The translations under genes were made by a program, and so were the position numbers. A model generated the notes under the pieces. It did not search any database, was not told the DNA's origin, and worked only from the letters and a program-made list of their open reading frames with translations. A DNA stretch of 40,442 bases from positions 1 to 40,442 of the forward strand of contig JACQPH010000026.1 of assembly GCA_016207645.1 (NCBI GenBank), given 5' to 3'. The DNA comes from Elusimicrobiota bacterium. GTDB taxonomy: Bacteria > Elusimicrobiota > Elusimicrobia > Elusimicrobiales > UBA9959. Position 1 is the first letter of the stretch. Every line of letters starts with the position of its first letter. Shown piece by piece: positions 2,647-19,821 of the stretch.

Positions 2647-2789
2647 ACCATATCTCCTTTGGAGCGGTGCCGCTGAAGGGTCACATAAGGCCGACTCTGA
2701 CAATTAGAGTTTACGATAGTCTTTGAGCGATGTCATGGGCCGAAGGGCCCAGGCACAACTGGGCATTATGGATCAGGGCGGCCTCTAAA

Positions 2790-2820
2790 TGGAAACGCCC
2801 CGTTAAACGGGGCGTTTCCA
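2790..2820. repeat. Perfect inverted repeat (hairpin)
   Basis: 15-bp arms (2790-2804 and 2806-2820) read TGGAAACGCCCCGTT and its complement, with essentially no spacer. No T tract follows on either strand, so it is not a standard terminator. It lies between the two protease genes. Confidence 0.6.
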
Positions 2821-2824
2821 GCGG

Positions 2825-2878
2825 AATAAGGTGACACACAACTTAATTGTTTCCAATTAAATTGTGTGTCACCTTATT
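2825..2878. repeat. REP-like palindromic element
   Basis: Long imperfect palindrome: AATAAGGTGACACACAA at 2825-2841 pairs with 2862-2878, and after one mismatch TTAATTG (2843-2849) pairs with 2854-2860. That is 24 pairs around a 4-nt loop. The lack of a T tract and the GGTGAC-type ends resemble small mobile palindromes (REP or MITE-like). A differently worded element of the same architecture occurs at 19827-19910. Confidence 0.6.
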
Positions 2879-2904
2879 TAGGCTTTGTCACCTTATTTAG
2901 GCTT
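2867..2904. repeat. 19-bp tandem direct repeat
   Basis: TGTCACCTTATTTAGGCTT occurs twice with no gap (2867-2885, 2886-2904). The first copy includes the right end of the palindrome; the second reaches the stop codon of the adjacent protease gene. This looks like an end duplication of the palindromic element. Confidence 0.65.
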
Positions 2905-4179: not shown

Positions 4180-4767
4180 GTGACCGGCAACGAGAACGAG
4201 TTCGAGCTATTGCGCCGCTTTTCGGAAGGGGACGAAGCTGCCTTCGCCGCCGTACTGGCGCGCTGGGAAAAGCCGCTTTTCAATTTTATCTGCCGCCTGC
4301 TGCCGGAAAGGACCGAGGCGGAGGACATAGCCCAGGAAGTGTTCCTTAAAGTGGCCGCCGCCGCCGGAACCCTGCGGGAGCGGGCCAGATTCTCTACCTA
4401 TCTTTTCCGCATCACCTACAACCTCTGTATCGACCGGATAAGGCGCAGGACGGTCAGGGCCGCCGGCGCGTCCTTCGTGAGCCTGGACGAAACCGCCGAG
4501 AGCGGCTCGGGCGAAAAGCTGTCCAGGCAGGTCCCGGACCCTTCCGACCTGCCGGCCGACCTCCTCCGGGAGAGGCTGGAAACGAAAACCTCGGTAGAGA
4601 AAGCCCTTCTACAACTGCCTGAGAACCAGCGGGCGGCTATAATGCTTAAAGTGTACGAAGACCGCCCCTACGCGGAAATAGCCGAAATACTCGGCGTTTC
4701 CCTGCCGTCGGTAGAATCCCTCCTGTTCAGGGCCCGCCAAAACCTGAAGAACCTGCTTAAACAGTAA
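4180..4767 (+). CDS. ECF-type RNA polymerase sigma factor
   Basis: Extracytoplasmic-function sigma factor of 195 residues that would redirect RNA polymerase to stress promoters. Region 2 spans about 24-92 (EAEDIAQEVFLKV then FSTYLFRITYNLCIDRIRRR, the core-binding and -10 recognition helices). Region 4 spans about 138-192 (LPENQRAAIMLKVYEDRPYAEIAEILGVS, helix-turn-helix for the -35). Start: a TAA stop lies directly before GTG 4180, so this GTG is the first usable codon; there is no Shine-Dalgarno. Four genes later comes a zinc-finger anti-sigma (6116), so the two are probably a regulator pair, here separated by two metal-related genes instead of being adjacent. The context suggests control of the metal-resistance genes that follow. 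Confidence 0.92.
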   Translation: MTGNENEFELLRRFSEGDEAAFAAVLARWEKPLFNFICRLLPERTEAEDIAQEVFLKVAAAAGTLRERARFSTYLFRITYNLCIDRIRRRTVRAAGASFVSLDETAESGSGEKLSRQVPDPSDLPADLLRERLETKTSVEKALLQLPENQRAAIMLKVYEDRPYAEIAEILGVSLPSVESLLFRARQNLKNLLKQ

Positions 4768-4800
4768 CCTGCCCTCCCCGCCGCTCCCGTGATCCCCTGG

Positions 4801-4828
4801 CCGCAAGTTTTTGAAGAGTTTTGCGTTT
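4801..4828 (+). promoter_or_regulatory. Candidate ECF sigma promoter or operator, copy 1
   Basis: CCGCAAGT-N9-GTTTTGCGTTT, shared with 6067-6094 at 22 of 28 positions; the differences fall in the middle. A GCAAGT block followed about 14 nt later by GCGTTT has the spacing of an ECF promoter (-35, then CGT-type -10). Transcription would start near 4835, giving a leader of roughly 33 nt before the ATG at 4868. It also contains the inverted pair CGCAA-N14-TTGCG, so a dimeric regulator site is an alternative. Confidence 0.6.
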
Positions 4829-4867
4829 AACGATCGCGGATATTTAAGGAACGGGAGAACAATTATA

Positions 4868-5404
4868 ATGAACACTAAACCGATACTGCCGGTAATAGCG
4901 GCTCTGGCTTTGAGCTCGGCGCAGGCTTTTGCGGGCTCCGGGATGCAGGAACATAAAGGCCACGCGGCGGCGGAGAAGGGCCACATGTGCCCTCACCAGG
5001 AGAAAGAGGCGAAAACGGTGAAAAGGGCGGTGGAGAACGGGATAGAAATAACTATGACGTCGGAAACTCCCGAAGGAGCCGCCGAACTGCGTAAAAAAGC
5101 GGCCGCCGAGTACAACTCCAAAGAGTGCCCGATGATGAAGGGGAGCAAAGAGGTCAAGCTGGAGGATATCGAGCGCGGTGTAAAGGTGACCATTACCTCC
5201 AAAGACCGCGCGGCCGTTAAAAAACTCCAGGCCTCGGCGAAACCGGCCAGGAGCTGCTGCGGAGAGGGCGGGCATGAAAGAGCGGCTTCGGCGAAAAGTT
5301 CGAAGAAGCACGCCTATAGCTGCCCGATGAACTGCGAAGGGTCCGGCTCCGACAAACCCGGGCGCTGCCCCAAGTGCGGCATGAACCTGGTAAAGAACGG
5401 GTAA
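4868..5404 (+). CDS. Exported heavy-metal-binding protein with HMBD motif
   Basis: 178-residue periplasmic protein, probably a soft-metal buffer or chaperone. Start at 4868 gives a clean signal peptide (cleavage near AFA, residue 22); GGGAG lies about 10 nt upstream. The C-terminus (150-176) carries the heavy-metal-binding motif YSCPMNCEG...GRCPKCGMNLVK. The middle contains two related segments, VENGIEITMTS (55-65) and IERGVKVTITS (102-111), each followed by a charged helix, which suggests an internal duplication. Extra Cys/His/Met groups (HMCPH at 39-43, CPMM at 87-90, CC at 130-131) add ligands. It is preceded by the 28-bp shared element, so it is likely a direct target of the sigma factor encoded just upstream. 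Confidence 0.82.
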   Translation: MNTKPILPVIAALALSSAQAFAGSGMQEHKGHAAAEKGHMCPHQEKEAKTVKRAVENGIEITMTSETPEGAAELRKKAAAEYNSKECPMMKGSKEVKLEDIERGVKVTITSKDRAAVKKLQASAKPARSCCGEGGHERAASAKSSKKHAYSCPMNCEGSGSDKPGRCPKCGMNLVKNG

Positions 5405-5511
5405 GCGACCGGCGAATGCCGGAACCGCGCTATTATTCTGGTGGAAACGCTTTATTTTAGTATCCACTGCGGGGGGATCTTTCCCTCTTCGAGGCGAGAA
5501 AAGGGGGGGAA

Positions 5512-6066
5512 ATGGACTTTTCTTTATTCGGTTTCAAGGCGGCCGGCGAGTTATTCAATATCCACCCGCTGTTCGTGCATTTCCCGGCGGCTTTCCTGCC
5601 CGGCGCCTTCCTGCTGTACGGCCTGGGGCTGTTTTTTAAAGAACCCGAGCTCGACTTCGCGGGAAGGGCTTGTCTTTACCTGGCCGCAGCGGGCGCGCTA
5701 AGCGCGGTAATAACCGGCCTTATTGCCGCGGACAGCTTTCCCCATAACGAAGTCATACACCAGCTGATGGGAACGCATCAAACCCTGGGCTGGGTCGTGC
5801 TCTCCCTGTCGGGCGTCCTGAGCGCGTGGAGTTTTTTTCAGACTGAACACCGCCCGAAAGCCGCCTGGGCTTTCCTCGCGCTGCTGGGGCTGGCCTGCCT
5901 GGCCGTCATGCAGGGAGCGGACATAGGCGCGCGGATGGTCTATCTGGAAGGCGCCGCCGTGAAGCCGGCGGTCTCCGTGATAGCCGCGAAAGAAGGAACG
6001 GAGCCCGGGGCGCCGCGGAAGGCCGCGGCTCCCGCCGGCCACGAGGGGCACCGCCACAAACACTGA
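5512..6066 (+). CDS. DUF2231-type four-helix membrane protein with His-rich tail
   Basis: 184-residue inner-membrane protein matching the look of the DUF2231 family: NIHPLFVHFPAAFLPGAFLLYGL (first helix with conserved His), a second helix ending near ITGLIAADSF, HQTLGWVVLSL, and the closing GADIGARMVYLEG motif. Four hydrophobic segments span about 17-40, 50-73, 87-106 and 115-135. The C-terminal tail ends in GHEGHRHKH, six metal ligands in a short stretch. The family's function is not established; it often lies near metal or redox genes. A G-rich ribosome binding site (AAGGGGGGGA) precedes the ATG. It sits between the metal-binding protein and the anti-sigma gene. Confidence 0.8.
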   Translation: MDFSLFGFKAAGELFNIHPLFVHFPAAFLPGAFLLYGLGLFFKEPELDFAGRACLYLAAAGALSAVITGLIAADSFPHNEVIHQLMGTHQTLGWVVLSLSGVLSAWSFFQTEHRPKAAWAFLALLGLACLAVMQGADIGARMVYLEGAAVKPAVSVIAAKEGTEPGAPRKAAAPAGHEGHRHKH

Positions 6067-6094
6067 CCGCAAGTATTTCGCCGGTTTTGCGTTT
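6067..6094 (+). promoter_or_regulatory. Candidate ECF sigma promoter or operator, copy 2
   Basis: Second copy of CCGCAAGT-N9-GTTTTGCGTTT, beginning right after the stop of the preceding gene and ending 21 nt before the ATG at 6116. Transcription from it would give a leader of about 15 nt for the anti-sigma gene and what follows. Confidence 0.6.
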
Positions 6095-6115
6095 GAAAGA
6101 ATGCGAGGTCACATT

Positions 6116-6697
6116 ATGCCTGAAAATTGTAAAGAGAGCCCGCGGGACCTTTCGGCCTACCTGGACGGGGCGCTGGCCGCGGAAAAACGGGCCGCGGTGG
6201 AAGCCCATTTAACCGCCTGCGCTTACTGCGCCGCGGAATTAAAGCTCCTGTCGGAGACTGACGCCCGCATAAAACAGCTTCCCGCTATAGAACCTCCGCC
6301 CTTTTTCGCGGCCAGGGTCGCCGCCGCCGCCCGCTCGGCTAACCGGTACGGCGCCTCTTTGCGCCGCTACCTGCGCCTGCCGGTGCCCGCCATGACCATA
6401 ATGGTGACCGTCATCCTGCTCAATATTTTCACCTTCGCCTTCAACATCAACGCGATGGAGAACGGGACGCGCCGGGAGCTCGCCGGCAAAATAGTGGAGC
6501 AGTTCACCCAGCCGGCCAGCCTGATAAACCCGGTGGCGCTGGTCCGTCTCTGCGACGAATGCTCGAAGTACATGTGCCGCTGCACGCACAAAGCCGGCAA
6601 GCAATGCGCCTGTCCCTGCAAAAACTGCGAACTGGCGAGGGAAGATGCCGGAAAAACCTGCGATACGGAAAACATGGAGGAAGCCGATGTCCACTAA
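6116..6697 (+). CDS. Zinc-finger anti-sigma factor with cysteine-rich extracytoplasmic tail
   Basis: 193-residue membrane-bound anti-sigma. The N-terminal zf-HC2/ZAS domain (about 5-45) has LSAYLDGALAAEKRAAVEAH, then the zinc motif H31-x3-C35-x2-C38. A single membrane helix spans about 91-110. The part after the helix should be periplasmic and ends in an unusual block with nine cysteines in 37 residues (C146, C149, C154, C156, C164, C166, C168, C171, C182). Such a tail could bind Cu, Ag or another thiophilic metal and signal through the helix to release the sigma factor; this is inference. Start at 6116 chosen for GAGGT 6 nt upstream (an ATG at 6101 lacks one). The end overlaps the next start by 11 bp. 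Confidence 0.85.
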   Translation: MPENCKESPRDLSAYLDGALAAEKRAAVEAHLTACAYCAAELKLLSETDARIKQLPAIEPPPFFAARVAAAARSANRYGASLRRYLRLPVPAMTIMVTVILLNIFTFAFNINAMENGTRRELAGKIVEQFTQPASLINPVALVRLCDECSKYMCRCTHKAGKQCACPCKNCELAREDAGKTCDTENMEEADVH

Positions 6698-6953: not shown

Positions 6954-8252
6954 ATGAAGACAGCGACCATAGCCGTATTTATTTCATTCGTTTGCGCCGC
7001 TACGGGCGCCCACGGCCAGACTGTCCAGGACAGGCCCCGGCCGCGGACGGAAGCCGCCGCGCCCGCAACCGCGGCCGCCGCCGAACTGAGCCTCGCCGAG
7101 GTCCTGGCCGCCGTCCGCGGCCGGAACCCCGACCTTAAGGCCGCTTCGGCGGTTTCCCTGGCCTATAAGAACCGGATAAAGCAGGCCTACCTGCTTAAGG
7201 ATCCGGTGATAGAATTCGAACGCATGTACACGCCTTCCGGAAAGAGTTTCCTGGGCGGCGACGGCGAAAGGAATATCTCCGTCAGCCAGATGATAGACAA
7301 CCCCTACAAGCTGCTGCTCCGCCGGGACCTCGCCAAGGACGAACACGCTTTTTATTCTACCCTCTACGAGGCGAAAGAGCTGGAACTGATCTCGAAAGCC
7401 AAGGCGCTTTTCTACGAATATTACATGGCCTCCAAAGCCGAGCTCATCTATAACGAGACGGTGGACATCCTGCGCGGTTTTTCGAAGATAGCGGAGGCGA
7501 AATATTCCGTCGGGAACGCCTCGCAGAGCGACGCGATAAAGGCCCAGGTGGAGCTTTCCAAAACACTTAACCTGCTGGTGACCGTTACCCAGGAAAAAGA
7601 AACCGCCAAGGCCATGCTGAACGCGCTGATGGACCGGGACACCCTGTCTCCCCTGCCGGCGCCGCAGGAACTGGAACCGGCGCCGCCCGGCCCGGCTTAT
7701 GAAAAACTGCGCTCCGCGGCTCTGGCCTCCAACCCGGGGCTGAAAGCCTACCACTATAAGATCAGCCAGGCCGAACGCCGCCTGTCGCTTTCCAAAGCGG
7801 ACTACCTGCCCGACTTCATGCTCCTCTACCGGAAAAGAAAAGCCCCCGGCTCGGAGATGAACAACACTTACGATATCTCGCTGGGCCTGACCGTGCCGCT
7901 CTGGTTCTCCAAACAGGGCGCGATGGTGAAAGAGACGGCCGCCGAAAAGGAAATGGCCCACGCGGAATACAGGGCGGCCCGCAACGAATTGTCCTCCTCG
8001 CTGAGGGAAGCGGACATTAAGGCGGGCAGCAGCCTGCGGCTGGTGGAACTTTACCGCGCCAGCGTGATTCCCCAGGCGGAAGAAGCTTTGAAGATCGCGC
8101 AGAGCGGCTACCAGGCCGAGAAGACGGATTTCATGGACCTGCTGGACGCGCAGCGCACGCTGCTGGAGTTCAGGATGGACTATTACCGCTACGTCGTGGA
8201 CTACCAGACCTGGCTGGCCCGGGTCGTACAGCTTACAGGGGAAATTAAATGA
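6954..8252 (+). CDS. Outer-membrane efflux channel, TolC/CusC family
   Basis: 432-residue outer-membrane factor that forms the exit duct of the tripartite metal pump. Signal peptide at 1-21 (cleavage near AHG). Two OEP repeats are visible, each with the long helical hairpins of TolC proteins: ELSLAEVLAAVRGRNPDLKAA (about 45) and YEKLRSAALASNPGLKAYHYK (about 245), and the typical ending AEKTDFMDLLDAQRTLLEFR. It is slightly shorter than E. coli CusC and has no lipobox cysteine. Its stop overlaps the adaptor start by ATGA. It is followed by adaptor and pump genes in the order C-B-A. Confidence 0.92.
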   Translation: MKTATIAVFISFVCAATGAHGQTVQDRPRPRTEAAAPATAAAAELSLAEVLAAVRGRNPDLKAASAVSLAYKNRIKQAYLLKDPVIEFERMYTPSGKSFLGGDGERNISVSQMIDNPYKLLLRRDLAKDEHAFYSTLYEAKELELISKAKALFYEYYMASKAELIYNETVDILRGFSKIAEAKYSVGNASQSDAIKAQVELSKTLNLLVTVTQEKETAKAMLNALMDRDTLSPLPAPQELEPAPPGPAYEKLRSAALASNPGLKAYHYKISQAERRLSLSKADYLPDFMLLYRKRKAPGSEMNNTYDISLGLTVPLWFSKQGAMVKETAAEKEMAHAEYRAARNELSSSLREADIKAGSSLRLVELYRASVIPQAEEALKIAQSGYQAEKTDFMDLLDAQRTLLEFRMDYYRYVVDYQTWLARVVQLTGEIK

Positions 8253-9517
8253 ACGCGAAAAAAACCGTTTTGCTGGTCCTGGGACTTTTACTGCTGGCCG
8301 CCATCCCCCTCGGGATAAAGTATTACCGCGGCCACGGCGGGCACGACGCCGCGCGGCAGGAAACCTATTATTGCCCGATGCACCCCACCTACACCTCCCA
8401 CCGGAAGGATGATTCCTGCCCTATCTGCGGCATGAACCTGGTGAAAAGCGAAGAGGCCCCGGCGGAGAAGAAGCAGGCTATGTATCACTGCCCGATGCAC
8501 CCCACCTACACCTCCCACCGGAAGGATGATTCCTGCCCTATCTGCGGCATGAACCTGGTGAAAAGCGAGGAGCCCGCCGCCGGCGCGGGAGGGAAGGTAA
8601 AGTTCTACCGCAATCCTATGAACCCGGCGATAACCTCCAAAACCCCGATGAAGGACGAGATGGGCATGGACTATGTGCCTGTGTACGAGGCCGAGGGGGA
8701 AGCCAAAGAGGTGGGCGGCAGGGCGCCGATAAAGATGGACAACGCTAAAAGGCAGCTCATCGGCGTGAAGACCGCCCGTGCCGCCTACCGGACGCTGACC
8801 CATACCGTAGCCAGCTCCGGCAAGGTGGCCTATGACCCGGACCTGTATCAATCCATTTCCGAATATAAGGAAGCCCTCGTAGCCCGGCAGAAAGTCAAGG
8901 ACAGCTCCTGGCCCGAAGTACATGAAAGGGCCGAAGCCCTGGTCCGGGCCTCCGAACTGCGCCTCAGGCAGGCGGGCCTCTCCGAAGACCAGATAACCGA
9001 ACTGAGCGTGAACGGCGAGACCCACGCCAACCTGCTGCTGCCCGGCGCGAAGGCCTGGCTTTACGCTCAGATCTACGAATACGAGATAGGCCTGATAAAA
9101 GCCGGACAGGAAATAGAAGCCGCCACCCCGGCCTATCCGGGCAAGGTTTTCCGCGGCGTCATAAAAGCCGTGGACTCCATCCTTTCCGCCGAGACCCGTA
9201 CGCTGCGCGTCAGGGCGGAAGTGGAGAACCCGGACAATATGCTCAAGCCCGAGATGTACGCCGAGATCAAGATAAAGATCACGCTGCCCTCCCGCCTCTC
9301 GGTGCCGCTCGGCGCCATCGTCAACACGGGCGCCCGCAAGCTGGTCTTCGTGGACAAGGGGGAGAAGGGCTTTGAGCCGAAGGAAGTGAAGACCGGTTTC
9401 GAAGGCGACGATTACGCGGAGATCCTGTCCGGCATAAGGGCGGGGGAAGAAGTGGTGACCTCCGCCAATTTCCTGATAGACTCGGAAGCCAGGATCAAGT
9501 CCACGGTGGCGGAATAA
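8249..9517 (+). CDS. cusB: CusB-like periplasmic adaptor with duplicated heavy-metal-binding domains
   Basis: 422-residue membrane-fusion protein linking the CusA pump to the outer-membrane channel. An N-terminal hydrophobic anchor spans about 5-23. Two nearly identical HMBD units follow (39-68 and 78-107), each YxCPMHPTYTSHRKDDSCPI then CGMNLVKSEE, and then a third, CusB-type metal site (117-146) with FYRNPMNP and GMDYVPVYE. The adaptor body runs from about 155, with the barrel-sandwich strand VASSGKVAYDPD, a helical hairpin (205-245), and beta-barrel and membrane-proximal parts to the end. The HMBD duplication is exact over 80 bp. In CusB the N-terminal methionines pass Cu(I)/Ag(I) to CusA; two Cys-type units added in front suggest extra metal capture (inference). 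Confidence 0.92.
   Translation: MNAKKTVLLVLGLLLLAAIPLGIKYYRGHGGHDAARQETYYCPMHPTYTSHRKDDSCPICGMNLVKSEEAPAEKKQAMYHCPMHPTYTSHRKDDSCPICGMNLVKSEEPAAGAGGKVKFYRNPMNPAITSKTPMKDEMGMDYVPVYEAEGEAKEVGGRAPIKMDNAKRQLIGVKTARAAYRTLTHTVASSGKVAYDPDLYQSISEYKEALVARQKVKDSSWPEVHERAEALVRASELRLRQAGLSEDQITELSVNGETHANLLLPGAKAWLYAQIYEYEIGLIKAGQEIEAATPAYPGKVFRGVIKAVDSILSAETRTLRVRAEVENPDNMLKPEMYAEIKIKITLPSRLSVPLGAIVNTGARKLVFVDKGEKGFEPKEVKTGFEGDDYAEILSGIRAGEEVVTSANFLIDSEARIKSTVAE
8372..8568 (+). repeat. In-frame 117-bp tandem duplication with 80 identical bases
   Basis: Bases 8372-8451 and 8489-8568 are identical without a single substitution, offset by 117 bp (39 codons), and together encode the two HMBD units of the adaptor. 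Complete identity including third codon positions points to a recent duplication or ongoing gene conversion. Confidence 0.9.
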
Positions 9518-9519
9518 AC

Positions 9520-12500
9520 ATGATAAAGAAGATCATCGCGTTCTCCGCCCACAACAAGGCATTGGTCATTATTTTCACCCTGGTGGCCACGCTGGGCGCT
9601 TATTATTGCGTAAAGAACATCTCGCTGGACGCTATCCCGGACCTGTCCGACACGCAGGTCATAGTCTATTCCCGCTGGGACCGCTCCCCCGATATCATGG
9701 AGGACCAGGTCACCTATCCTATCATCACGTCCCTGCTGGGCGCGCCTAAAGTAAAAACGATCAGGGGCTTTTCGGATTTCGGCTTTTCCTACGTCTACGT
9801 TATTTTCGAGGACGGCACGGACATTTACTGGGCCAGGGCCCGCGTGCTGGAATACCTGAACAAGATACAGGGCCGGCTCCCCGAGGGCGTGAAGACGGAG
9901 ATAGGCCCCGACGCCAGCAGCGTCGGCTGGGTGTTCCAGTACGCGCTGGTGGACAAGAGCGGCAGGCACGACCTGTCCGAACTGCGCAGCTTCCAGGACT
10001 GGAACCTGAAGTATCATCTGCAGTCCGTGCCCGGCGTGGCCGAGGTGGCCTCCATCGGCGGCTTCCAGAAGCAGTACCAGGTGAACCTGAACCCCAACGC
10101 GATGGCCGCCTACAATATCCCTCTGGAAAAAGTGCTGGAGGCGGTAAAGGACGGGAACAACGAAGCGGGCGGCCGGCTGATAGAATTTTCGGGCGCGGAA
10201 TACATGATCCGCGGCAAGGGCTACGCCAAGTCGGTGAGCGACATCGAGGACATCGTGGTGGCGCGCGACATGAACGGCACGCCGGTGCTCATCAAGAGCA
10301 TAGCCCGGGTGGAGACCGGCCCCGAGATCCGGCGCGGCATAGCCGACCTGGACGGGGAAGGCGATACCGTGGGCGGGATCGTCATCATTCGTCACAAGGA
10401 GAACGCGCTGAACGTGATAGAGCGGATAAAGGAAAAGCTGGAGCAGATAAAACCCTCCCTGCCCGAAGGCGTGGAGGTGGTGACCACCTACGACCGCTCC
10501 GGCCTGATCTACAAAGCCATAGCCACGCTGAAGCGGCAGTTGACCGAAGAAATGATCATCGTCAGCCTGGTCATCCTTATTTTCCTCTGGCACGTGCCTT
10601 CCGCGGTCATCCCGATCGTCACCATCCCGGTCTCGGTCTTCCTGGCTTTCATCCCGATGTATTTCATGGGCATCTCCTCGAACATCATGTCCCTGTCCGG
10701 CATAGCCATCTCCATCGGCGTGCTGGTGGACGGCGCCATAGTGGAGGTGGAGAACGCCTATAAAAAACTGGAGCTCTGGAATAGCGGGGGGAGGAAAGGC
10801 GATTTCCACGAGGTGAGGCTGGAAGCCCTGCAGGAAGTGGGCCCGTCGGTCTTTTTCTCGCTGCTGGTGATAGCCGTGGCTTTCCTGCCCATCTTCACTC
10901 TGGTGGACCAGGAAGGCCGCATGTTCAAGCCGCTGGCCTATACCAAGAACCTCTCCATGTTCATGGCGGCCCTGCTGGCCATCACGCTGGACCCCGCGCT
11001 GCGGATGATGTTCGCACGGATGGACCCTTTTCCTATCAAGCCGCTCTGGCTGGGGAAAGTAGTGAACACCGCCGCCGTCGGCACTTATTACCCCGAAGAG
11101 AAGCACCCCATCAGCAAGGTCCTTTTCGCCGTCTACGAGCCGGTCTGCAAATGGGTCCTGAACCACCCGCTGAAGACCCTGGCCTTCTCGCTCCTCCTCG
11201 TGCTATCCACCATCCCCGTCTACCTGAAGCTGGGCTCCGAGTTCATGCCGCCCCTGAACGAGGGAACCATCCTCTACATGCCCACTACCCTGCCGGGGCT
11301 ATCGGTCACAGAAGCCCAGAGGCTGATGCAGTTGCAGGACAGGATCCTTAAGAGCATACCGGAAGTGGAGCGGGTGTTCGGCAAGGCCGGGCGCGCAGAG
11401 ACCTCCACCGACCCCGCCCCTTTCTCCATGATGGAGACCACCGTGGTGCTCAAGCCCCACGACGAGTGGCGGGCCAAGCCCCGCTGGTATTCCTCCTGGG
11501 CGCCCGGTTTCCTGCGCGGGATACTCAGCCATATTTGGTACGACAAGCTGACCTGGGACGAGCTTATCACGGACATCGATTCGAAGATGAGGTTCCCCGG
11601 CGTGTCCAATGCCTGGACCATGCCCATCAAGGCCAGGATAGACATGCTTTCCACCGGCATCCGCACGCCGATAGGGATAAAGATCTACGGCGCGGACCTG
11701 AACGTGATACAGAAGATAGGCGTGGAAGTGGAACAGCTTATCACCCACGTCAAAGGCACCCGGAGCGCCTTCGCCGAGCGCACCGCCGGCGGCTACTTCC
11801 TGGACTTCACGCTGAAGAGGGACCAGCTCGCCCGCTACGGCCTCTCGGTGAAGGAAGCCCAGATGGCCGTGATGTCCGCTATCGGCGGCGAGCCTATCTC
11901 CACCACCGTCGAGGGGAGGGAGCGCTATTCCATCAATGTGCGCTATGCCCGCGAGTACCGCGACGACCTGAACAAACTGGGCCGGGTCCTGGTCACTACG
12001 ATGGGCGGCATCAATGTACCGCTGGCGCAGATAGCCGACATCCAGATGCGCCAGGGCCCCGCGATGATCCGCGACGAGAACGGCCTGCTCTCGGGCTACG
12101 TCTACGTGGACATAGAGGGCATCGATGTCGGGACCTACGTGAAGAACGCCAAGGCGCACGTGCTCTCGCAGATAAAACTCCCGGCCGGCTATTCCCTGGA
12201 ATGGAGCGGCCAGTACGAGAACATGCTCCGCGTGCGCGAAAGGCTGAAGATCGTGCTGCCGCTCACGCTGTTCATTATTTTCATACTGCTGTACATGAAT
12301 ACGAAGTCGGCGGTGAAGACCTTCATCGTGCTGCTGGCCGTACCTTTCTCGCTGATCGGCGCGGTCTGGTTCCTGTACTTCCTGGACTATAACGTCTCCA
12401 TCGCCGTCTGGGTGGGCATGATAGCGCTGATGGGCCTGGACGCCGAAACGGGCGTATTCATGCTGCTGTTCCTGGACCTTTCCTACGACGATATGAAGAA

Positions 12501-12765
12501 GGCCGGCCGGATGAACAACAAGGCCGACCTGAAGGAAGCCATCATGCACGGCGCGGTCAAGCGCGTGCGCCCGAAGATGATGACGGTGGCCGCGGCCTTC
12601 ATGGGCCTGATCCCCATCATGTACGCGCTGGGCACCGGCTCCGACGTGATGAAGCGCATAGCCGCACCCATGATCGGCGGCCTCGCCTCCAGCTTCGCGC
12701 TGGAGCTGCTGGTCTACCCGGTGGTGTTCTACCTTTGGAAGATGAAAGAGAACGACTTCAGGTGA
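9520..12765 (+). CDS. cusA: CusA-type Cu(I)/Ag(I) RND efflux pump
   Basis: 1,081-residue proton-driven inner-membrane pump. The N-terminal signature (SLDAIPDLSDTQVIVYSRW) and SSVGWVFQYALVD are those of CusA/SilA. The three porter-domain methionines that bind Cu(I)/Ag(I) in CusA are present: M587 in LYMPTTLPG, M637 in APFSM, M709 in ARIDMLSTG. The membrane half includes VDGAIVEVENAYKKLE and GLDAETGVFMLL, with charged residues of the proton relay. It is longer than E. coli CusA partly through an insertion of about 23 residues between M637 and M709 (aromatic-rich, near residue 650-675). It starts 2 nt after the adaptor stop. Together with the two upstream genes it makes a complete CusCBA-type exporter. 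Confidence 0.95.
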   Translation: MIKKIIAFSAHNKALVIIFTLVATLGAYYCVKNISLDAIPDLSDTQVIVYSRWDRSPDIMEDQVTYPIITSLLGAPKVKTIRGFSDFGFSYVYVIFEDGTDIYWARARVLEYLNKIQGRLPEGVKTEIGPDASSVGWVFQYALVDKSGRHDLSELRSFQDWNLKYHLQSVPGVAEVASIGGFQKQYQVNLNPNAMAAYNIPLEKVLEAVKDGNNEAGGRLIEFSGAEYMIRGKGYAKSVSDIEDIVVARDMNGTPVLIKSIARVETGPEIRRGIADLDGEGDTVGGIVIIRHKENALNVIERIKEKLEQIKPSLPEGVEVVTTYDRSGLIYKAIATLKRQLTEEMIIVSLVILIFLWHVPSAVIPIVTIPVSVFLAFIPMYFMGISSNIMSLSGIAISIGVLVDGAIVEVENAYKKLELWNSGGRKGDFHEVRLEALQEVGPSVFFSLLVIAVAFLPIFTLVDQEGRMFKPLAYTKNLSMFMAALLAITLDPALRMMFARMDPFPIKPLWLGKVVNTAAVGTYYPEEKHPISKVLFAVYEPVCKWVLNHPLKTLAFSLLLVLSTIPVYLKLGSEFMPPLNEGTILYMPTTLPGLSVTEAQRLMQLQDRILKSIPEVERVFGKAGRAETSTDPAPFSMMETTVVLKPHDEWRAKPRWYSSWAPGFLRGILSHIWYDKLTWDELITDIDSKMRFPGVSNAWTMPIKARIDMLSTGIRTPIGIKIYGADLNVIQKIGVEVEQLITHVKGTRSAFAERTAGGYFLDFTLKRDQLARYGLSVKEAQMAVMSAIGGEPISTTVEGRERYSINVRYAREYRDDLNKLGRVLVTTMGGINVPLAQIADIQMRQGPAMIRDENGLLSGYVYVDIEGIDVGTYVKNAKAHVLSQIKLPAGYSLEWSGQYENMLRVRERLKIVLPLTLFIIFILLYMNTKSAVKTFIVLLAVPFSLIGAVWFLYFLDYNVSIAVWVGMIALMGLDAETGVFMLLFLDLSYDDMKKAGRMNNKADLKEAIMHGAVKRVRPKMMTVAAAFMGLIPIMYALGTGSDVMKRIAAPMIGGLASSFALELLVYPVVFYLWKMKENDFR

Positions 12766-14016: not shown

Positions 14017-14574
14017 ATGAAAAGAAAACTCACGCTGCTGCTGGGATTCGCCGTAACTCTCGCGTATTCTCCGGCTTTTGCCGAAGAAACCGCCGCTAAA
14101 GGAGAGCACGCCATGCAGACGGCCGCGGACGCCCCCGCGCCCAAAGCCAAGGACGCCAGGACGGAGAAGAAAGTCCAGGCGGAAAAAGCCGTCTACCGCA
14201 AAATAACTGCGGAGGAAGTCGGAATGGAGTCCGTCTGTCCCGCTACGGGAGAAAAGTTCAAAGTAACGGAGAAAACGCCTTCTGTTTCCTACAAGGACAA
14301 GAATTATTTCTTCTGCTGCCCCGGCTGCGACAAGTCCTTTATTAAAAACCCGGAGAAATACCTCGCAAAGAAAACTGAAGCCGGGAAGCGCTATGCCTGC
14401 CCCATGGGCTGCGCGGAATCCGACAAGCCGGGGAAATGCCCCAAGTGCGGCATGAACATGACGGAGAAAAAGGCGGCACGGAATAAAGCATATGTCTGCC
14501 CCATGGGCGAATACGAAGGAAGCAAACCCGGCAAGTGCCCCAAATGCGGCATGAACCTGGTGGAAAAGAAGTAG
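14017..14574 (+). CDS. Exported YHS plus double HMBD metal-binding protein
   Basis: 185-residue periplasmic protein. Signal peptide at 1-22 (cleavage AFA). A charged, Ala/Lys-rich linker follows. A YHS-type domain (about 72-117) has CPATGEKF and the ligands YFFCCPGCDKSF. Two HMBD units (125-152, 158-185), each YxCPMG...PGKCPKCGMN, complete the protein. A good ribosome binding site (AGGAGA) lies 5 nt upstream. The YHS and HMBD domains are known to occur together in copper/silver resistance proteins. It shares the HMBD motif with the proteins at 4868 and 8249, which suggests that one module spread within this island. Confidence 0.82.
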   Translation: MKRKLTLLLGFAVTLAYSPAFAEETAAKGEHAMQTAADAPAPKAKDARTEKKVQAEKAVYRKITAEEVGMESVCPATGEKFKVTEKTPSVSYKDKNYFFCCPGCDKSFIKNPEKYLAKKTEAGKRYACPMGCAESDKPGKCPKCGMNMTEKKAARNKAYVCPMGEYEGSKPGKCPKCGMNLVEKK

Positions 14575-14583
14575 AATAAAGCT

Positions 14584-14611
14584 TTCCGGGCCGGCTCGTA
14601 CAGGCCCGGAA
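14584..14611 (+). other. Stem-loop upstream of the peptide gene
   Basis: 9-bp stem (14584-14592 with 14603-14611, TTCCGGGCC and complement), 10-nt loop, no T tract. It lies between the HMBD gene and the 27-codon gene and could be an RNA processing or stability element rather than a terminator. Confidence 0.45.
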
Positions 14612-14637
14612 GAAGTAGAAAGCAACGGAGGTAACGC

Positions 14638-14721
14638 ATGCTGTTCGAAGAACACCACGAAGTTGCGGTTGCCGTCGTGAGCGAGGAGCACTGCGACGCG
14701 ATGGGCTGCAAGCCGTCGTAA
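14638..14721 (+). CDS. 27-residue peptide, candidate RiPP precursor
   Basis: Short gene with the best Shine-Dalgarno in the region (GGAGGT, 5 nt before ATG 14638) and a TAA stop. The peptide has an acidic/His start (EEHHE at 4-8), a hydrophobic Val/Ala middle (9-14) and the tail EEHCDAMGCKPS with C19 and C24. It lies about 100 bp before a radical SAM/SPASM gene, separated by a terminator-like hairpin. This arrangement (short, highly translated peptide, leaky terminator, peptide-modifying radical SAM enzyme) is typical of RiPP loci, where the tail Cys residues are made into thioether links. No known precursor family was recognised. Alternatives: a regulatory leader peptide, or a small metal-binding peptide (H6, H7, H18, C19, C24). 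Confidence 0.68.
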   Translation: MLFEEHHEVAVAVVSEEHCDAMGCKPS

Positions 14722-14738
14722 GTGTAACTGAAGTAAAC

Positions 14739-14812
14739 GGAGGCAGCCTCCGCGCAAGTCTGTGCAAGCGCAAGGACCCGCGGAGGCTGCCCTCCCAATA
14801 TTTTCTAATTTT
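14739..14812 (+). terminator. Terminator/attenuator-like hairpin between peptide and radical SAM genes
   Basis: The 13-bp stem GGCAGCCTCCGCG (14742-14754) pairs with 14779-14791; three more pairs close the base after a bulge, the loop is 24 nt, and a TATTTTCTAATTTT tract follows. Each arm can also fold on itself (GGAGG-CAG-CCTCC at 14739-14751 and GGAGG-CTGC-CCTCC at 14782-14795), so two competing structures exist. Expected effect: much peptide mRNA, less enzyme mRNA. Confidence 0.6.
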
Positions 14813-14817
14813 AGCAC

Positions 14818-16032
14818 ATGAGAATAAAAGACTGCGTTGTAAAACGCTCCCTGGACGGCATCTGGCTGCATCATACCGCCAGCGCTTACAGAGTAAAGAT
14901 GAACCCGGAGGCGCTGGATGTCCTTGAGTCCATGGCCGCGCGCCGTGGCGCCGCCGAGATGGCGGAAAAAGAAAAATTCATCTACGAGAAGCTGGCGGCC
15001 AAAGGCATAGCCGGAGAAGACACCGGACTTGAGGAGGACCGCCAAATCGTAATCAAGGATAAAAGCCGCCTCGACATCGTAGACCTGGAATTCTCGGGCC
15101 GCTGCAACCTCCGCTGCGCTCACTGCTTCGCCTCGCTCTCGCAAAAAGACATGACCCGGGAAATCCTCGAGAAGGTTTTTACCGGTATAGACGCCCTTGA
15201 ACCGGTAAGCCTGACGATAAACGGCGGGGAACCTCTACTGAACCCGCTGCTCCCCGAGGCGTTGCGGCTAGCCCGGGCGCGGAGGCTGCGCGTCACCCTA
15301 ATGTCCAACGCTACGCTGGCCACTGAAAAAACAGCCGACCTACTTAAAGACAACGCTGTGGCAAAAATACAGGTCAGCCTGGATTTCTTCGAAGAGACCC
15401 ATGACGCCCTTCGCGGTAGAGGAACCTTCAAGAGAGCGGTGAACGGCATAAAACTCCTCGTTTCCCGCAAAGTCCCTGTCACCATAGCGGCCCTTGTCCA
15501 GGAAAGCACAGCGGGGCGAGTCGAGGAATTTAAGGATTTTTGCCTCGGCGAACTCGGAGCCTCAGGAATAAGATTCTCCTCTGTCTCCCCGATAGGCAGC
15601 GCAAAGGATTCACCCGAACTGGGGCTCTCCGCCGCGAAAACAAAAGAACTATACAATAAGGGGCTGATAGCCGCTCCCGGGGATGGCGACGGCGTTATCG
15701 CCAGATTTGCCGGAGGACGCAATTTTTATTGCAAGGCCGGAGTGAATCAGTGTTTCATTTCCGCAGACGGCCAGGTTTACGCCTGCCATTATTTCCAGAA
15801 CCTCGGTGAAAGCATGGGCAGCCTGGCCGACAGATCTTTGGAAACGATATACAGGGACTATCAGGACAGCCGGGCCGTGCCGGTGGACCTGGACTGGAAC
15901 AAGCTGAAAAAGTGCAAAGCCTGCGCCCATTTCGCCATGTGCATGGGCGGCTGCCGCGCGCGCGCCAAAATACTTACCAGCAAGTGGTACGATCCTGACC
16001 CTTTTTCCTGCGGCATCTACGGCGTGGAGTAA
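14818..16032 (+). CDS. Radical SAM/SPASM peptide maturase with RRE-like N-terminus
   Basis: 404-residue radical SAM enzyme, probably modifying the peptide encoded just upstream. Residues 1-70 look like a PqqD-type peptide-recognition domain (strands, then YRVKMNPEALDVLESM and a helix ending LAAKGIAG). The radical SAM core starts at about 88 with C96-x3-C100-x2-C103 and NGGEPLLNP (135-143). The SPASM domain is canonical: C305-x12-G318-x4-C323, then C366-x2-C369-x5-C375-x3-C379, and C398, enough for two auxiliary 4Fe-4S clusters. C312 is extra. The ATG at 14818 is the first after an in-frame TAG and has no Shine-Dalgarno. It is followed by a strong terminator, so the peptide-enzyme pair forms a unit with no transporter or protease alongside. 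Confidence 0.88.
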   Translation: MRIKDCVVKRSLDGIWLHHTASAYRVKMNPEALDVLESMAARRGAAEMAEKEKFIYEKLAAKGIAGEDTGLEEDRQIVIKDKSRLDIVDLEFSGRCNLRCAHCFASLSQKDMTREILEKVFTGIDALEPVSLTINGGEPLLNPLLPEALRLARARRLRVTLMSNATLATEKTADLLKDNAVAKIQVSLDFFEETHDALRGRGTFKRAVNGIKLLVSRKVPVTIAALVQESTAGRVEEFKDFCLGELGASGIRFSSVSPIGSAKDSPELGLSAAKTKELYNKGLIAAPGDGDGVIARFAGGRNFYCKAGVNQCFISADGQVYACHYFQNLGESMGSLADRSLETIYRDYQDSRAVPVDLDWNKLKKCKACAHFAMCMGGCRARAKILTSKWYDPDPFSCGIYGVE

Positions 16033-16050: not shown

Positions 16051-16088
16051 AAGACTCCCTCAGGCATTCTGAGGGAGTCTTTTAATTT
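16051..16088 (+). terminator. Intrinsic terminator after the radical SAM gene
   Basis: Perfect 13-bp stem AAGACTCCCTCAG (16051-16063) with 16069-16081, 5-nt loop GCATT, followed by TTTTAATTTT. It closes the peptide-maturase unit. Confidence 0.9.
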
Positions 16089-16169: not shown

Positions 16170-17561
16170 ATGATCTTAAAAACAGTAGAAAACATGCAGA
16201 CAGTAGACACCGTGCTGGACCTCATAGGGAATACCCCGCTGCTGAAGGTAAAACACCTGGACACCGGCAAATGTGAACTTTTTCTTAAGCTGGAATGCCA
16301 GAATCCCGGCGGGTCTATAAAAGACCGCATCGCCCTCTCCATGATAGCCGCCGCAGAGAAGGAAGGCAAAATAACAAAAGGGGGAACGCTGGTGGAAGCC
16401 ACCGCCGGGAATACCGGCCTGGGCCTGGCCCTGGTAGCCGCCCAGAAAGGCTACAAGCTTATCCTCGTCATCCCGGACAAGATGAGCCAGGAGAAGATCT
16501 CCCACCTGCGGGCTTTAGGCGCGCAGATAATAAACACCCGCTCCGACGTGGAAAAGGGCCACCCCGAATACTACCAGGACATGGCGGAAAGAATAGCCCG
16601 CGAAACGCCCAACGCCTACTTCATAAACCAGTTCGCCAACCCCGCCAACCCCGCGGCCCACGAAGAGACCACCGCCCCGGAGATCTGGGAACAGATGGAA
16701 CACCGCGTCGACGCGGTCGTCTGCGGCGTGGGGTCCGGCGGCACGCTGACCGGCTTCGGCCGTTTTTTCGCGCGCGTCTCGCCCGAGACGGAAATGGTGC
16801 TGGCCGACCCCGCCGGCTCGGTGCTGGCCGACTATGTAAAGACCGGCAAGCTCGGGAAGGCGGGCTCCTGGTACGTGGAGGGGATAGGCGAGGATTTCAT
16901 ACCCTCGGTCGCCGATATGGCTATGGTCAAGAAGGCTTACACCATAACTGACGGTGAGAGCTTTACCGCAGTGCGCGAACTGCTGAAGAAAGAAGGCGTC
17001 CTGGCCGGTTCCTCGACCGGCACCCTGCTTGCGGCGGCGCTGAAATATTGTCGCGAGAGCAGGACTCCCAAACGGGTAGTCACTATCGTCGGAGACAGCG
17101 GCAATAAGTATCTCTCCAAGATGTTCAACGATTACTGGATGGCCGACCAGGGCTTCATTAAAAGAGAGGAATTCGGCGACCTGAGGGACCTGGTAGGGCG
17201 CCCCTGCTCGGCCGGCTCGGTGGTCTCGGTGAAGCCCGGCGACGCGCTGGTAACGGCCTTCCTCCGGATGCGGCTGTACGAATACTCCCAGCTCCCGGTG
17301 CTGGAGGATGGCCATGTGGTCGGCATGCTAGACGAGTCGGACATCCTGATGGCCGTGCACAAGGATATCTCCAACTACCGCAAACCGCTGCGGGAACATA
17401 TGACGCATAACCTGGTCACGGTGCAGCCCTCGACTTCCCTCGAAGAGATTACGACCATCCTGAACAAGGGCCTGGTCGGGCTCCTCAACTGCGACGGGAA
17501 GTTCTACGGCTTAATAACCCGCGTGGACCTGCTCAATCACCTGCGCAGGACGCTGGCCTAG
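16170..17561 (+). CDS. Cystathionine beta-synthase with C-terminal CBS pair
   Basis: 463-residue PLP enzyme joining homocysteine with serine (or O-acetylserine) to cystathionine. Fold-type II core: K51 in NPGGSIKDR binds PLP; TAGNTG (78-83) binds the substrate carboxylate; GSGGTLTG (188-195) holds the PLP phosphate; SSTGT (281-285) contacts the pyridine ring. Two CBS domains follow (about 342-400 and 405-460), the regulatory module of beta-synthases. There is no N-terminal haem domain. The start at 16170 has GGGAG close upstream; M9 is an alternative. It is 10 nt before the cystathionine gamma-lyase gene, so together they run the transsulfuration route to cysteine. A plain cysteine synthase role cannot be excluded. 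Confidence 0.9.
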   Translation: MILKTVENMQTVDTVLDLIGNTPLLKVKHLDTGKCELFLKLECQNPGGSIKDRIALSMIAAAEKEGKITKGGTLVEATAGNTGLGLALVAAQKGYKLILVIPDKMSQEKISHLRALGAQIINTRSDVEKGHPEYYQDMAERIARETPNAYFINQFANPANPAAHEETTAPEIWEQMEHRVDAVVCGVGSGGTLTGFGRFFARVSPETEMVLADPAGSVLADYVKTGKLGKAGSWYVEGIGEDFIPSVADMAMVKKAYTITDGESFTAVRELLKKEGVLAGSSTGTLLAAALKYCRESRTPKRVVTIVGDSGNKYLSKMFNDYWMADQGFIKREEFGDLRDLVGRPCSAGSVVSVKPGDALVTAFLRMRLYEYSQLPVLEDGHVVGMLDESDILMAVHKDISNYRKPLREHMTHNLVTVQPSTSLEEITTILNKGLVGLLNCDGKFYGLITRVDLLNHLRRTLA

Positions 17562-17583
17562 GTAAAACCTAATGGAGATGAAA

Positions 17584-18723
17584 ATGAAATTCGAGACAGC
17601 GCTGATACATGCCGGCCAGGAAGCGGACAAGGAGACCGGGGCCGTCAACATCCCCATCTACCAGACTTCCACCTATAAGCAGGACGGCATAGGCAGGGAC
17701 CGGGGCTGGGAATACTCCCGCACCGGCAACCCAACGCGCAAAGCGCTGGAGGACTGCATAGCGGCGCTCGAAGGGACCAGGTACGGCATGGCCTTCGCTT
17801 CCGGCCTCGCCGCAGAAGCCACGGCCTGCCTGAGCCTGCTAAAAAAAGGCGACCACGTGGTGTCCGGCGACGATATTTACGGCGGTACCTACCGGCTGTT
17901 CGAGAAAGTGTTCAGGAAGTGGGGCCTGGAGATCACCTACGCGGATTCCAGGAGCCCCGCCTCTTTCAGGAAAGCGATGCGCCGCAACACCCGGCTGATC
18001 TGGGCCGAAACTCCCACCAACCCGCTGTTGAACATCACCGACATAGAGGCGCTGGCCGGGATCGCTAAAAAGGGCAAGGCCCTGCTGGCTGTGGACAACA
18101 CCTTCGCCACGCCTTACTTCCAGCGGCCGCTAGAGCTGGGGGCGGACATCGTCGTGCACAGCTCCACCAAGTACCTCGGCGGCCACAGCGACGTGATTGG
18201 CGGCCTGATGGCCGTGGCGGACAAGAGAGTTTACGAGGAGATAAAATTCTCCCAGAACGCCGCCGGCGGCGTGCCGGGCCCCTGGGATTCCTGGCTGACG
18301 CTGCGCGGCATCAAGACCCTGGCCGTCCGCATGAAGGCCCACGAGGCCAACGCCTTCGCCGTCGCGAATTTCCTTTCCTCCCACCGCGCCGTCTCCAAAG
18401 TGTTCTATCCCGGGCTGGAGTCTCATCCCGGGCACAGCCTCGCCAGGAAACAGATGCACGGCTTCGGCGGCATGGTCAGCTTCGAGCTCAAAGGCGGCAG
18501 GCCCGCCGCCGAGGTTTTCTTCAAAAAGCTGAAGATCTATATGCTGGCAGAAAGCCTGGGCGGGGTGGAATCCCTGGCCTGCTACCCGGCCACGATGACG
18601 CACGCCTCCATACCGGAAAAAGAGCGCCTGAAGCGCGGCATCACCGCCGGGCTGGTGCGGCTCTCTTCAGGCATAGAAAATTCGGACGACCTGATAGGGG
18701 ACCTGGAGCGCGCGCTTAAATAA
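17584..18723 (+). CDS. Cystathionine gamma-lyase/synthase (PLP, Cys/Met metabolism)
   Basis: 379-residue fold-type I PLP enzyme. Motifs: YSRTGNPTRKALE (44-56), SGLAAE (73-78) for the cofactor phosphate, DNTFATPYFQRPLELGADIVVHSSTKYLGGH region with K196 as the PLP lysine, and late SLGGVESL. Start set at ATG 17584 because GGAG lies 6 nt upstream and family members begin at this point; ATGs at 17572 and 17578 overlap the ribosome binding site. Being paired with a beta-synthase favours the lyase direction (cystathionine to cysteine, 2-oxobutanoate and ammonia), but gamma-synthase or other sulfur-lyase activity is possible from sequence alone. Confidence 0.9.
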   Translation: MKFETALIHAGQEADKETGAVNIPIYQTSTYKQDGIGRDRGWEYSRTGNPTRKALEDCIAALEGTRYGMAFASGLAAEATACLSLLKKGDHVVSGDDIYGGTYRLFEKVFRKWGLEITYADSRSPASFRKAMRRNTRLIWAETPTNPLLNITDIEALAGIAKKGKALLAVDNTFATPYFQRPLELGADIVVHSSTKYLGGHSDVIGGLMAVADKRVYEEIKFSQNAAGGVPGPWDSWLTLRGIKTLAVRMKAHEANAFAVANFLSSHRAVSKVFYPGLESHPGHSLARKQMHGFGGMVSFELKGGRPAAEVFFKKLKIYMLAESLGGVESLACYPATMTHASIPEKERLKRGITAGLVRLSSGIENSDDLIGDLERALK

Positions 18724-18726
18724 GCT

Positions 18727-19821
18727 ATGCCGCTTTCAAAAGAAGAGCTGATACGCTACTCCCGGCAGTTGGTAGTTCCCGGCGTAGGGCCTGAAGGCCA
18801 GGAGAAAATCAAGGCCGCGAAGGTCGCCGTTGTCGGGGCCGGCGGCCTCGGCTCGCTGGTGCTCGGCTACCTGGTCGGGGCGGGAGTGGGCGAGATCGGA
18901 GCCTTCGACTTCGGCCCGGTGGAACTTTCCAATCTGCACCGCCAGCTCATTTACGGCACCGGCGATATAGGCCGGCTTAAGACGGAACTGGTGGAACAAC
19001 GCCTGCGGGAGATCAATCCTGAAGTAAAGGTCAATACGGGTGAAGGCCTCCTTACCGGCGAGAATATCGAAGCCGCGCTGGCCGGCTACGATTATATAGC
19101 CGACTGCACCGATAATTTCACGACGCGCGCCGCCATCAACAAAGCCTGCCTGCGGCTGAAAAAGACTTATGTGCACGGCGCCGTTTACCAGTTCGAAGGG
19201 CAACTGGCGGTTTTCGAGCCGCATAGCGGTCCCTGCCTGGGCTGCCTGCTGCCAGGCGCGGAGAACCAGGAGAACCAGGCCTGCGCCGAAGCCGGCGTGA
19301 TGGGCCCCGCCGCCGGGGCCGTAGCGTCCATGCAGGCCCTCGAGATACTAAAACTGATACTCGGTTTCGGAACCCTGAAAGGCAAGTTCGCGATGCTGGA
19401 CTTCCAGTTCGCCGACTTCAATGTCGTCGAGCTGAAAAAGCGGGCCGACTGCCCGGTCTGCGGCAAACCGGGACGCGACAAAAAATTCATAGACTCGCTG
19501 GCCGTGGATTTCATCACCCCTGAAGAACTGAACAAGCGGCTGGCCTCCAAAACGCCGCCGCGCCTGCTGGACCTGCGCTATTCCTGGGAGCACGACCTCT
19601 GCAATATAACCGGCGACACCTGGCTGGACTTCGACGAATTGATGAAGAACGGCGCCGGGCTCAAGGCGGGGGAAGAACTGGTCCTCTACTGCAAAGCCCA
19701 GAGCAAGTCCGCCGCGGCCTGGCGCTCCCTCCGCGCCAAAGGCTTTAAAAACATTTCTGTCCTGAAAGGCGGCCTGGACTCCTGGGCCGAGAAGATAGAC
19801 AGTAAAATGACCAGGTATTAG
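18727..19821 (+). CDS. E1-like adenylyltransferase fused to a rhodanese domain (MoeB/ThiF type)
   Basis: 364-residue two-domain protein that would adenylate the C-terminus of a ubiquitin-like sulfur carrier (MoaD, ThiS or CysO type) and transfer sulfur to it. E1 domain at 1-250: nucleotide loop GAGGLGS (37-43), SNLHRQ (68-73), DCTDN (126-130) with the catalytic Asp, and a zinc site from CLGC (170-173) and CPVC (242-245). C186 lies where MOCS3-like proteins have the sulfur-linking Cys. Rhodanese domain at about 262-360: LLDLRYSWEHDL and the active-site loop YCKAQSKS with C322 as persulfide carrier. It follows the transsulfuration genes by 3 nt. No sulfur-carrier gene is present in the window. 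Confidence 0.88.
   Translation: MPLSKEELIRYSRQLVVPGVGPEGQEKIKAAKVAVVGAGGLGSLVLGYLVGAGVGEIGAFDFGPVELSNLHRQLIYGTGDIGRLKTELVEQRLREINPEVKVNTGEGLLTGENIEAALAGYDYIADCTDNFTTRAAINKACLRLKKTYVHGAVYQFEGQLAVFEPHSGPCLGCLLPGAENQENQACAEAGVMGPAAGAVASMQALEILKLILGFGTLKGKFAMLDFQFADFNVVELKKRADCPVCGKPGRDKKFIDSLAVDFITPEELNKRLASKTPPRLLDLRYSWEHDLCNITGDTWLDFDELMKNGAGLKAGEELVLYCKAQSKSAAAWRSLRAKGFKNISVLKGGLDSWAEKIDSKMTRY

Follow-up and report, generated by a model that had tools for sequence, protein, structure and literature searches.

A candidate RiPP family with an HC...C core, a radical SAM/SPASM enzyme and copper-efflux neighbours in Elusimicrobiota

The 40,442-nucleotide stretch of Elusimicrobiota DNA analysed here (contig JACQPH010000026.1; hereafter, the window) contains a 27-codon reading frame that follows a copper/silver island and precedes a gene for a radical SAM enzyme (Table 1). 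This arrangement raises the questions of whether the short frame is a gene, whether its product is the substrate of the enzyme, and what a modified peptide would do beside metal-efflux genes. Sactipeptide and ranthipeptide maturases are SPASM radical SAM enzymes that act on short, linked Cys-containing peptides, and radical SAM RiPPs have usually been studied as antibiotics, signals or redox cofactors. The genome of the window (G000; 2.8 Mb in 167 contigs, 81% complete) was compared with others of the phylum, 340 genomes in all.

Table 1. Features of the window around the peptide and enzyme genes
Feature	Position	Strand	Basis or remark
TolC-type outer membrane efflux protein	6954..8252	+	Pfam OEP
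CusB-like adaptor	8249..9517	+	best NCBIfam match CusB, below cut-off; HMBD-like repeats by eye
CusA/CzcA-family heavy-metal efflux RND pump	9520..12765	+	above cut-off
Heavy-metal-binding protein	14017..14574	+	HMBD above, YHS just below Pfam cut-off; signal-peptide-like N-terminus by eye
Inverted repeat TTCCGGGCC-N10-GGCCCGGAA, between HMBD/YHS gene and peptide	14584..14611	+	absent from the sequence-only reading
GGAGG ribosome binding site of peptide gene	14627..14631	+	read from sequence
Putative 27-aa precursor peptide gene	14638..14721	+	ORF MLFEEHHEVAVAVVSEEHCDAMGCKPS; putative leader MLFEEHHEV, core around AVVSEEHCDAMGC
Hairpin between peptide and enzyme	14739..14795	+	covariation; absent from the sequence-only reading
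Radical SAM/SPASM protein, 404 aa, putative peptide maturase	14818..16032	+	Pfam Radical_SAM and SPASM above cut-off
RRE-like N-terminal domain, residues 1-85	14818..15072	+	predicted, fold only
CxxxCxxC radical SAM [4Fe-4S] motif (C96, C100, C103)	15103..15126	+	alignment
SPASM domain, full Cys set C305 to C398	15730..16011	+	Pfam, alignment
Intrinsic terminator-like hairpin 3' of enzyme	16051..16081	+	14 pairs
Cystathionine beta-synthase-like PLP enzyme with CBS domains ("CBS")	16170..17561	+	best NCBIfam match, below cut-off
Cys/Met-metabolism PLP enzyme ("CGL"; synthase or lyase)	17572..18723	+	above cut-off of cystathionine gamma-synthase model
ThiF/MoeB-type E1 with C-terminal rhodanese domain	18727..19821	+

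Conservation of the short peptide

A profile of 11 relatives (11 rows, those of genomes G186 and G213 not among them) returned 16 strong places in 11 of the 340 genomes, which are the genomes of the family minus G186 and G213. The divergent peptide of G213 was spotted by eye upstream of the enzyme, with its stop 90 nt before the enzyme gene; that of G186 is the sole short frame with HC-x(2-7)-C within 16 kb and has two possible starts. With both rows included in the profile, the family comprises 18 copies, 24-47 residues long, in 13 of the 340 genomes; its weakest member scores E 3e-9, and the next match, with second cores of members set aside, E 0.006. The peptide is conserved in sequence, position and reading frame across five genera in three families, and a GGAGG-type site lies 5' of the start in all 16 copies displayed. 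All relatives come from this single phylum; those whose records have a title are metagenome-assembled. The peptide had no match in plasmids, and 17 of the 18 peptides had no match better than E 0.05 in an NCBIfam scan.

The codons of the peptide are under purifying selection and are not drifting: pooled over codons 1-19 of 16 of the 18 peptides (G213 and G186 left out), pS was 0.487 and pN was 0.140 (pN/pS 0.29), and pN exceeded pS in the two other frames over the peptide. Within G142, and likewise within G143, the two copies show 4 synonymous and 0 non-synonymous differences over the same codons. The pair in G150 has 4.5 synonymous and 3.5 non-synonymous differences, which implies that constraint on the peptide is not uniform. 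Together, purifying selection and conservation of the family rule out a chance ORF and show that the 27-codon frame, noted earlier from the window sequence alone, is a real gene.

Beyond the family, the profile matched 14 weak places (E 0.006-0.5), 6 of them with HC-x(2-7)-C close to the matched stretch. All 14 lack the family start M-[LIY]-[FY]-x-E, and the genomes that hold them all lack the enzyme (E up to 1e-40); these places were therefore taken as chance. The nearest look-alike is a 48-residue frame on the minus strand near the middle of L105 (genome G308), which has an MIF start and HKAHCDTGAC at E 0.11 and lacks E5; this frame probably arose by chance as well.

Six positions are invariant in all 18 peptides: M1, E5, V11, H18, C19 and a second Cys, which is C24 in the window peptide. 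Both cysteines that the sequence-only reading had singled out are thus constrained. Its C-x4-C tail stood as to the two conserved cysteines and failed as to their spacing, which is x4 in most copies, x2 in G186 and G213 (the only CxxC peptides), x3 in G111, and x6 in both G142 copies, G144a, G144c and G141; the invariant feature is HC...C, within a core of the pattern V-x-V-V-[S/T]-x-x-H-C-x(2-6)-C. Such a variable loop between invariant cysteines is easier to reconcile with a ligand set, or with modifications independent of each other, than with a crosslink to a residue whose position between the cysteines is fixed. The segment around AVVSKPHCADMGC is repeated, and MLFEEH is single, in four copies (G151, G144b and two in G150), and this duplication of one part without the other suggests where the boundary between leader and core lies.

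The linked radical SAM/SPASM enzyme

The window enzyme was confirmed as a radical SAM protein with a full set of SPASM cysteines, both Pfam domains scoring above cut-off. Its SPASM cysteines follow the pattern C305-x12-G-x4-C323 ... C366-x2-C369-x5-C375-x3-C379 ... C398, and these and the radical SAM cysteines are invariant in 13 aligned members. The enzyme matched 78 NCBIfam families, and none of the best 25 reached its cut-off. The top score was to MftC (110.2 bits, cut-off 265), and the matches to StsB (101.2/625), PapB (90.2/340), PqqE (74.7/381.35), SkfB (64.2/300) and AlbA (59.7/850) were likewise below cut-off. A mycofactocin or PQQ system was rejected on the MftC and PqqE scores. Among plasmids, the best match to the enzyme had about 28% identity and is annotated mftC. 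The best PDB matches by sequence were SkfB, anSME and 5wgg, which we take to be CteB, and the best fold matches of the enzyme model include structures of SkfB, CteB, SuiB and PqqE. The model has a mean pLDDT of 77, with values below 50 at residues 255-266, 286-303, 364-378 and 396-404, and is thus poor in parts of the SPASM region.

The sequence-only reading had also assigned a PqqD-like domain to the N-terminus. The predicted topology of the first 85 residues (three strands, then helices) fits an RRE, and a PqqD-like domain was not detectable by sequence in the N-termini of seven members searched against Pfam, six of which gave no match and one only unrelated sub-threshold matches. With the N-terminal part alone, the five best Foldseek matches were leader-binding proteins or SuiB (E 0.38-0.70), and unrelated proteins followed from E 0.75. 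Because these E values are not significant and PqqD gives no sequence match, we treat the RRE as a prediction from the model. Genes for PqqD are located elsewhere in 11 of the 13 genomes. In G000 itself, PqqD-like (RRE) frames occur on contig C38 and on contig C86 (1263-1463); the one on C38 lies slightly ahead of a same-strand radical SAM match (C38 positions 947-1147 and 1722-2606), which suggests a second RiPP-like system in this genome. Contig C15 of G000 (L002, L007, L009, L010) has four radical SAM-like matches to the window enzyme within about 5 kb, possibly another peptide-modification or cofactor cluster.

Enzyme and peptide occur together. The enzyme family has 15 places in 13 of the 340 genomes (E up to 1e-40), and at 12 of these places a peptide starts 124-245 nt upstream on the same strand. 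At a thirteenth, in G186, the peptide starts 1.3 kb 5' of the enzyme, both genes point the same way and two XdhC-family genes intervene, and the enzyme on G144:C36 has a peptide about 4 kb off on the opposite strand. The sole place lacking a peptide, in G135, is a 5'-truncated remnant whose match begins at residue 196 directly after a ThiF gene; since this assembly is in 450 contigs, misassembly is possible. By genome, 12 have a full enzyme and the peptide, one has only the peptide, one has only the enzyme remnant, and 326 have neither. In the peptide-only genome, G141, the last peptide codon is 95 nt from the contig end. These counts support the proposal of a precursor with its radical SAM/SPASM maturase and answer the check it invited, namely whether homologous enzymes are accompanied by a conserved upstream peptide. 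Judged from its genes, the unit would qualify as a radical SAM RiPP system: a short precursor gene is linked to and conserved with an enzyme that has CxxxCxxC plus the SPASM auxiliary-cluster cysteines, and none of the family models compared is passed (the best 25 for the enzyme; 17 of the 18 peptides).

The association of peptide and enzyme also bears on the reading that the peptide stays unmodified as a small metal-binding protein and that the enzyme modifies another protein. An invariant His and two Cys with a variable loop do resemble a ligand set, and an HMBD/YHS gene is a neighbour. However, the closest folds of the enzyme include RRE-bearing peptide maturases, enzyme and peptide co-occur, and the double-core peptides follow one enzyme clade: they are found only with the enzymes of G151, G150 and G144b, which form a single clade with the G135 remnant (support 96/98). 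We therefore regard an unmodified metal-binding peptide as very improbable. The length of the Cys-Cys loop does not track the enzyme tree neatly, and x6 peptides (G142, G144a, G144c) and x4 peptides (G000, G149) mix in one enzyme clade.

A hairpin follows the peptide in all 16 copies folded (G213 and G186 were not among these). In the alignment of 13 of the 18 copies, all from one genus, its pairing is kept, with compensatory change at 9 of 19 predicted pairs. Behind four copies (G142b, G150b, G144b and G143b) there is no enzyme gene; three of these (G142b, G150b and G144b) end in a hairpin plus T-run, and G143b, which is faced by a gene on the opposite strand, does not. Among 11 copies with the enzyme behind them, by our own reading, the U-tract is weak in seven and better in four (G143a, G228, G230 and G111). 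The element is probably a leaky terminator or an mRNA-processing element that lowers expression of the enzyme relative to the peptide. G142 and G150 each carry another peptide gene beyond the enzyme, in convergent orientation, and at L042 (1991-3710) and L037 (8078-9710) the enzyme sits between two copies of the peptide-hairpin segment that are convergent and have diverged in sequence (79% identical over 217 nt and 85% over 109 nt). The inverted repeat upstream of the window peptide has no T-run; of the 9 copies with a YHS/HMBD gene before them, 6 have a like stem predicted, by a count made by eye. Rfam gave one match only, sub-threshold and inside the HMBD/YHS gene. The terminator expected after the enzyme is present as a terminator-like hairpin.

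A short frame with His-Cys codons and a strong hairpin before the enzyme, near genes of cysteine metabolism, could instead be a regulatory leader peptide, in which ribosome-mediated attenuation senses Cys or His supply, the terminator controls the enzyme gene, and the enzyme acts elsewhere. Against this reading, the N-terminus is strongly conserved along with HC...C, cores are duplicated in four peptides, and there are no consecutive Cys codons. Moreover, two XdhC-family genes stand between the peptide and the enzyme of G186, and the four stand-alone copies have no enzyme behind them. On these stand-alone copies, attenuation was rejected as the main reading, and we give it very little chance.

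Copper and sulfur genes around the unit

The link to a copper/silver island proposed for the window was found in other genomes as well. CusA is present at 14 places in 12 of the 13 peptide genomes (E up to 1e-200; none in G230), and in 10 of these 12 a copy shares a contig with the peptide, at a distance of 0.6-17 kb; the CusA gene of G228 and that of G150 are on a different contig. Likewise, CGL is present at 12 places in 11 of the 13 peptide genomes (E up to 1e-60), and 11 of these places, in 10 of the 11 genomes, share a contig with a peptide gene, 0.6-13 kb off. G186 is the exception, its peptide contig carrying a CBS gene instead, and G150 has only a CGL fragment at a contig edge. The HMBD/YHS gene, which ends 63 nt before the peptide in the window, lies 57-64 nt 5' of the peptide in 9 of the 18 copies. 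Both CusA and CGL are mostly single-copy, and this low copy number served as the yardstick of linkage in place of a random-locus control: by our own estimate, in a genome of 2.4-4.6 Mb the chance that a single-copy gene falls within 17 kb of a chosen position is about 1%, the genomes being related.

Among 32 genomes of the genus, island-type CBS, a class that is our own reading of the matches, was found in 7 of 9 genomes with the unit (G135 remnant counted) versus 2 of 23 others (Fisher p 3e-4, kinship ignored). Without G135, the counts were 6 of 8 versus 3 of 24 (p 2e-3, kinship likewise ignored). In G213, which belongs to another family, the peptide is directly preceded by a gene for a Cu/Zn exporter of the SO_0444 family (341 bits against a cut-off of 300), which adjoins a gene for a metal-sensing repressor resembling CsoR/RicR (above the cut-off of its Pfam family and below that of NCBIfam RicR). 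The two parts can also occur apart. Contig G143:C4 (11 kb) carries peptide and enzyme and no island gene, and in G134 and G136 the island is present and the unit is not, which implies that the island works without it.

Dedicated exporter, immunity and leader peptidase genes were not recognised. The statement in the sequence-only reading that there is no protease was not quite right, as two trypsin-like genes lie at 1810-3965 on the minus strand of the window; relatives of these trypsin-family genes recur close to the unit or the island at three loci (L038, L081 and, for one of the two genes, L082), and they show no link to processing of the peptide. Window positions 4180-6697, upstream of the Cus genes, encode a sigma-70-family factor and HMBD, DUF2231 and zf-HC2 proteins, perhaps including a metal-responsive sigma/anti-sigma pair. 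Other neighbours are XdhC-family genes, which adjoin the unit in G186 and its remnant in G135, and the molybdenum-cofactor genes of MoaA and MoeA type that precede the peptide in G111 (L048 5053-9481). XdhC was rejected as a specific partner: it was found in all 16 genomes tested, and its adjacency to the unit therefore says little.

These neighbourhoods weigh on the reading in which precursor and maturase are correctly identified and the copper island is no more than a shared mobile neighbourhood, the product being a redox or catalytic cofactor, as with PQQ and mycofactocin, or a signalling or antimicrobial peptide. MftC as the best-scoring NCBIfam model (far under its cut-off, 110 vs 265 bits), the XdhC and MoaA/MoeA neighbours, and the stand-alone unit on G143:C4 would be compatible with such a product. 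In mycofactocin systems, the short precursor MftA adjoins MftC and has a C-terminal core; the tail of the present peptide differs. Moreover, linkage to CusA, to CGL/CBS or to both persists across five genera and three families while order and orientation are shuffled, XdhC is in every genome tested, and no exporter or immunity gene was recognised. A cofactor, signal or antimicrobial product thus appears unlikely, although it is the most serious of the alternatives weighed here.

A candidate metal-handling RiPP

The reading that we favor, and hold to be rather probable, makes the unit a new family of RiPPs in which a modified HC...C core takes part in the homeostasis of copper/silver and possibly of sulfur; its chemistry, its product and its metal are what we infer from the genes. 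The acidic N-terminus (M-L-F-E-E-H) would be the leader, gripped by the RRE-like domain of the enzyme. The enzyme would then modify the V-x-V-V-[S/T]-x-x-H-C-x(2-6)-C core, and, by analogy to SkfB and CteB, the modification would most likely be at Cys sulfur, as a thioether or by other C-S chemistry. The post-peptide hairpin may keep the peptide in excess, with leaky read-through into the enzyme gene. The product most likely would be retained, intracellularly or in the periplasm, as a ligand of soft metals (Cu/Ag) or a carrier of sulfur or metal and would work beside Cus efflux and the HMBD/YHS metal-binding proteins, and CBS, CGL and the ThiF-rhodanese protein may supply cysteine or sulfide.

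The known systems closest to the unit include the sactipeptide and ranthipeptide maturases (SkfB, CteB, SCIFF-type and PapB); structures of SkfB and CteB rank high among the PDB matches of the enzyme by both sequence and fold. They differ in that the present enzyme falls under the StsB, PapB, SkfB and AlbA cut-offs and its precursor has two Cys per core, as HC-x(2-6)-C. Captophorins and bufferins are RiPPs tied to excess copper and are made by MNIO enzymes, whereas the enzyme here is a radical SAM protein (PMC13097082, PMC12452194). An MNIO-type copper RiPP was rejected: 12 of the 13 peptide genomes had no match to MNIO (PF05114), and in G228 the match (26.0 bits, cut-off 25) is on a contig without the peptide. 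The GRC-type RaS-RiPPs of streptococci resemble the window in having a radical SAM and a ThiF-like enzyme near a Cys-containing precursor; their ThiF-like enzyme has an RRE domain and their cluster has a transporter, whereas the ThiF protein here has a rhodanese domain (PMC12250964). In the stretches of limited length available, a ThiF gene was not seen beside the copies of G151, G186, G213, G111, G230, G228 and G143:C4. Action of the E1 on the peptide C-terminus, as in GRC peptides, was rejected because the C-termini differ among copies.

More specifically, and tentatively, the family may be a radical-SAM-made class of Cu/Ag-handling RiPPs, an unrelated parallel to the MNIO-made captophorins and to methanobactins, in which one or two HC-x(2-6)-C cores are modified by a dedicated RRE-SPASM enzyme, sulfur is supplied by transsulfuration and the E1-rhodanese protein, and metals are exported by the Cus pump of the island. 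At the level of titles and abstract openings, no such family was found described in the open literature. If the favored reading is true, a family fixed in copper-efflux islands would point to a role of radical SAM RiPPs in metal homeostasis, would offer testable chemistry on a 24-residue substrate, and would connect a RiPP family with the physiology of the Elusimicrobiota, of which few have been cultured.
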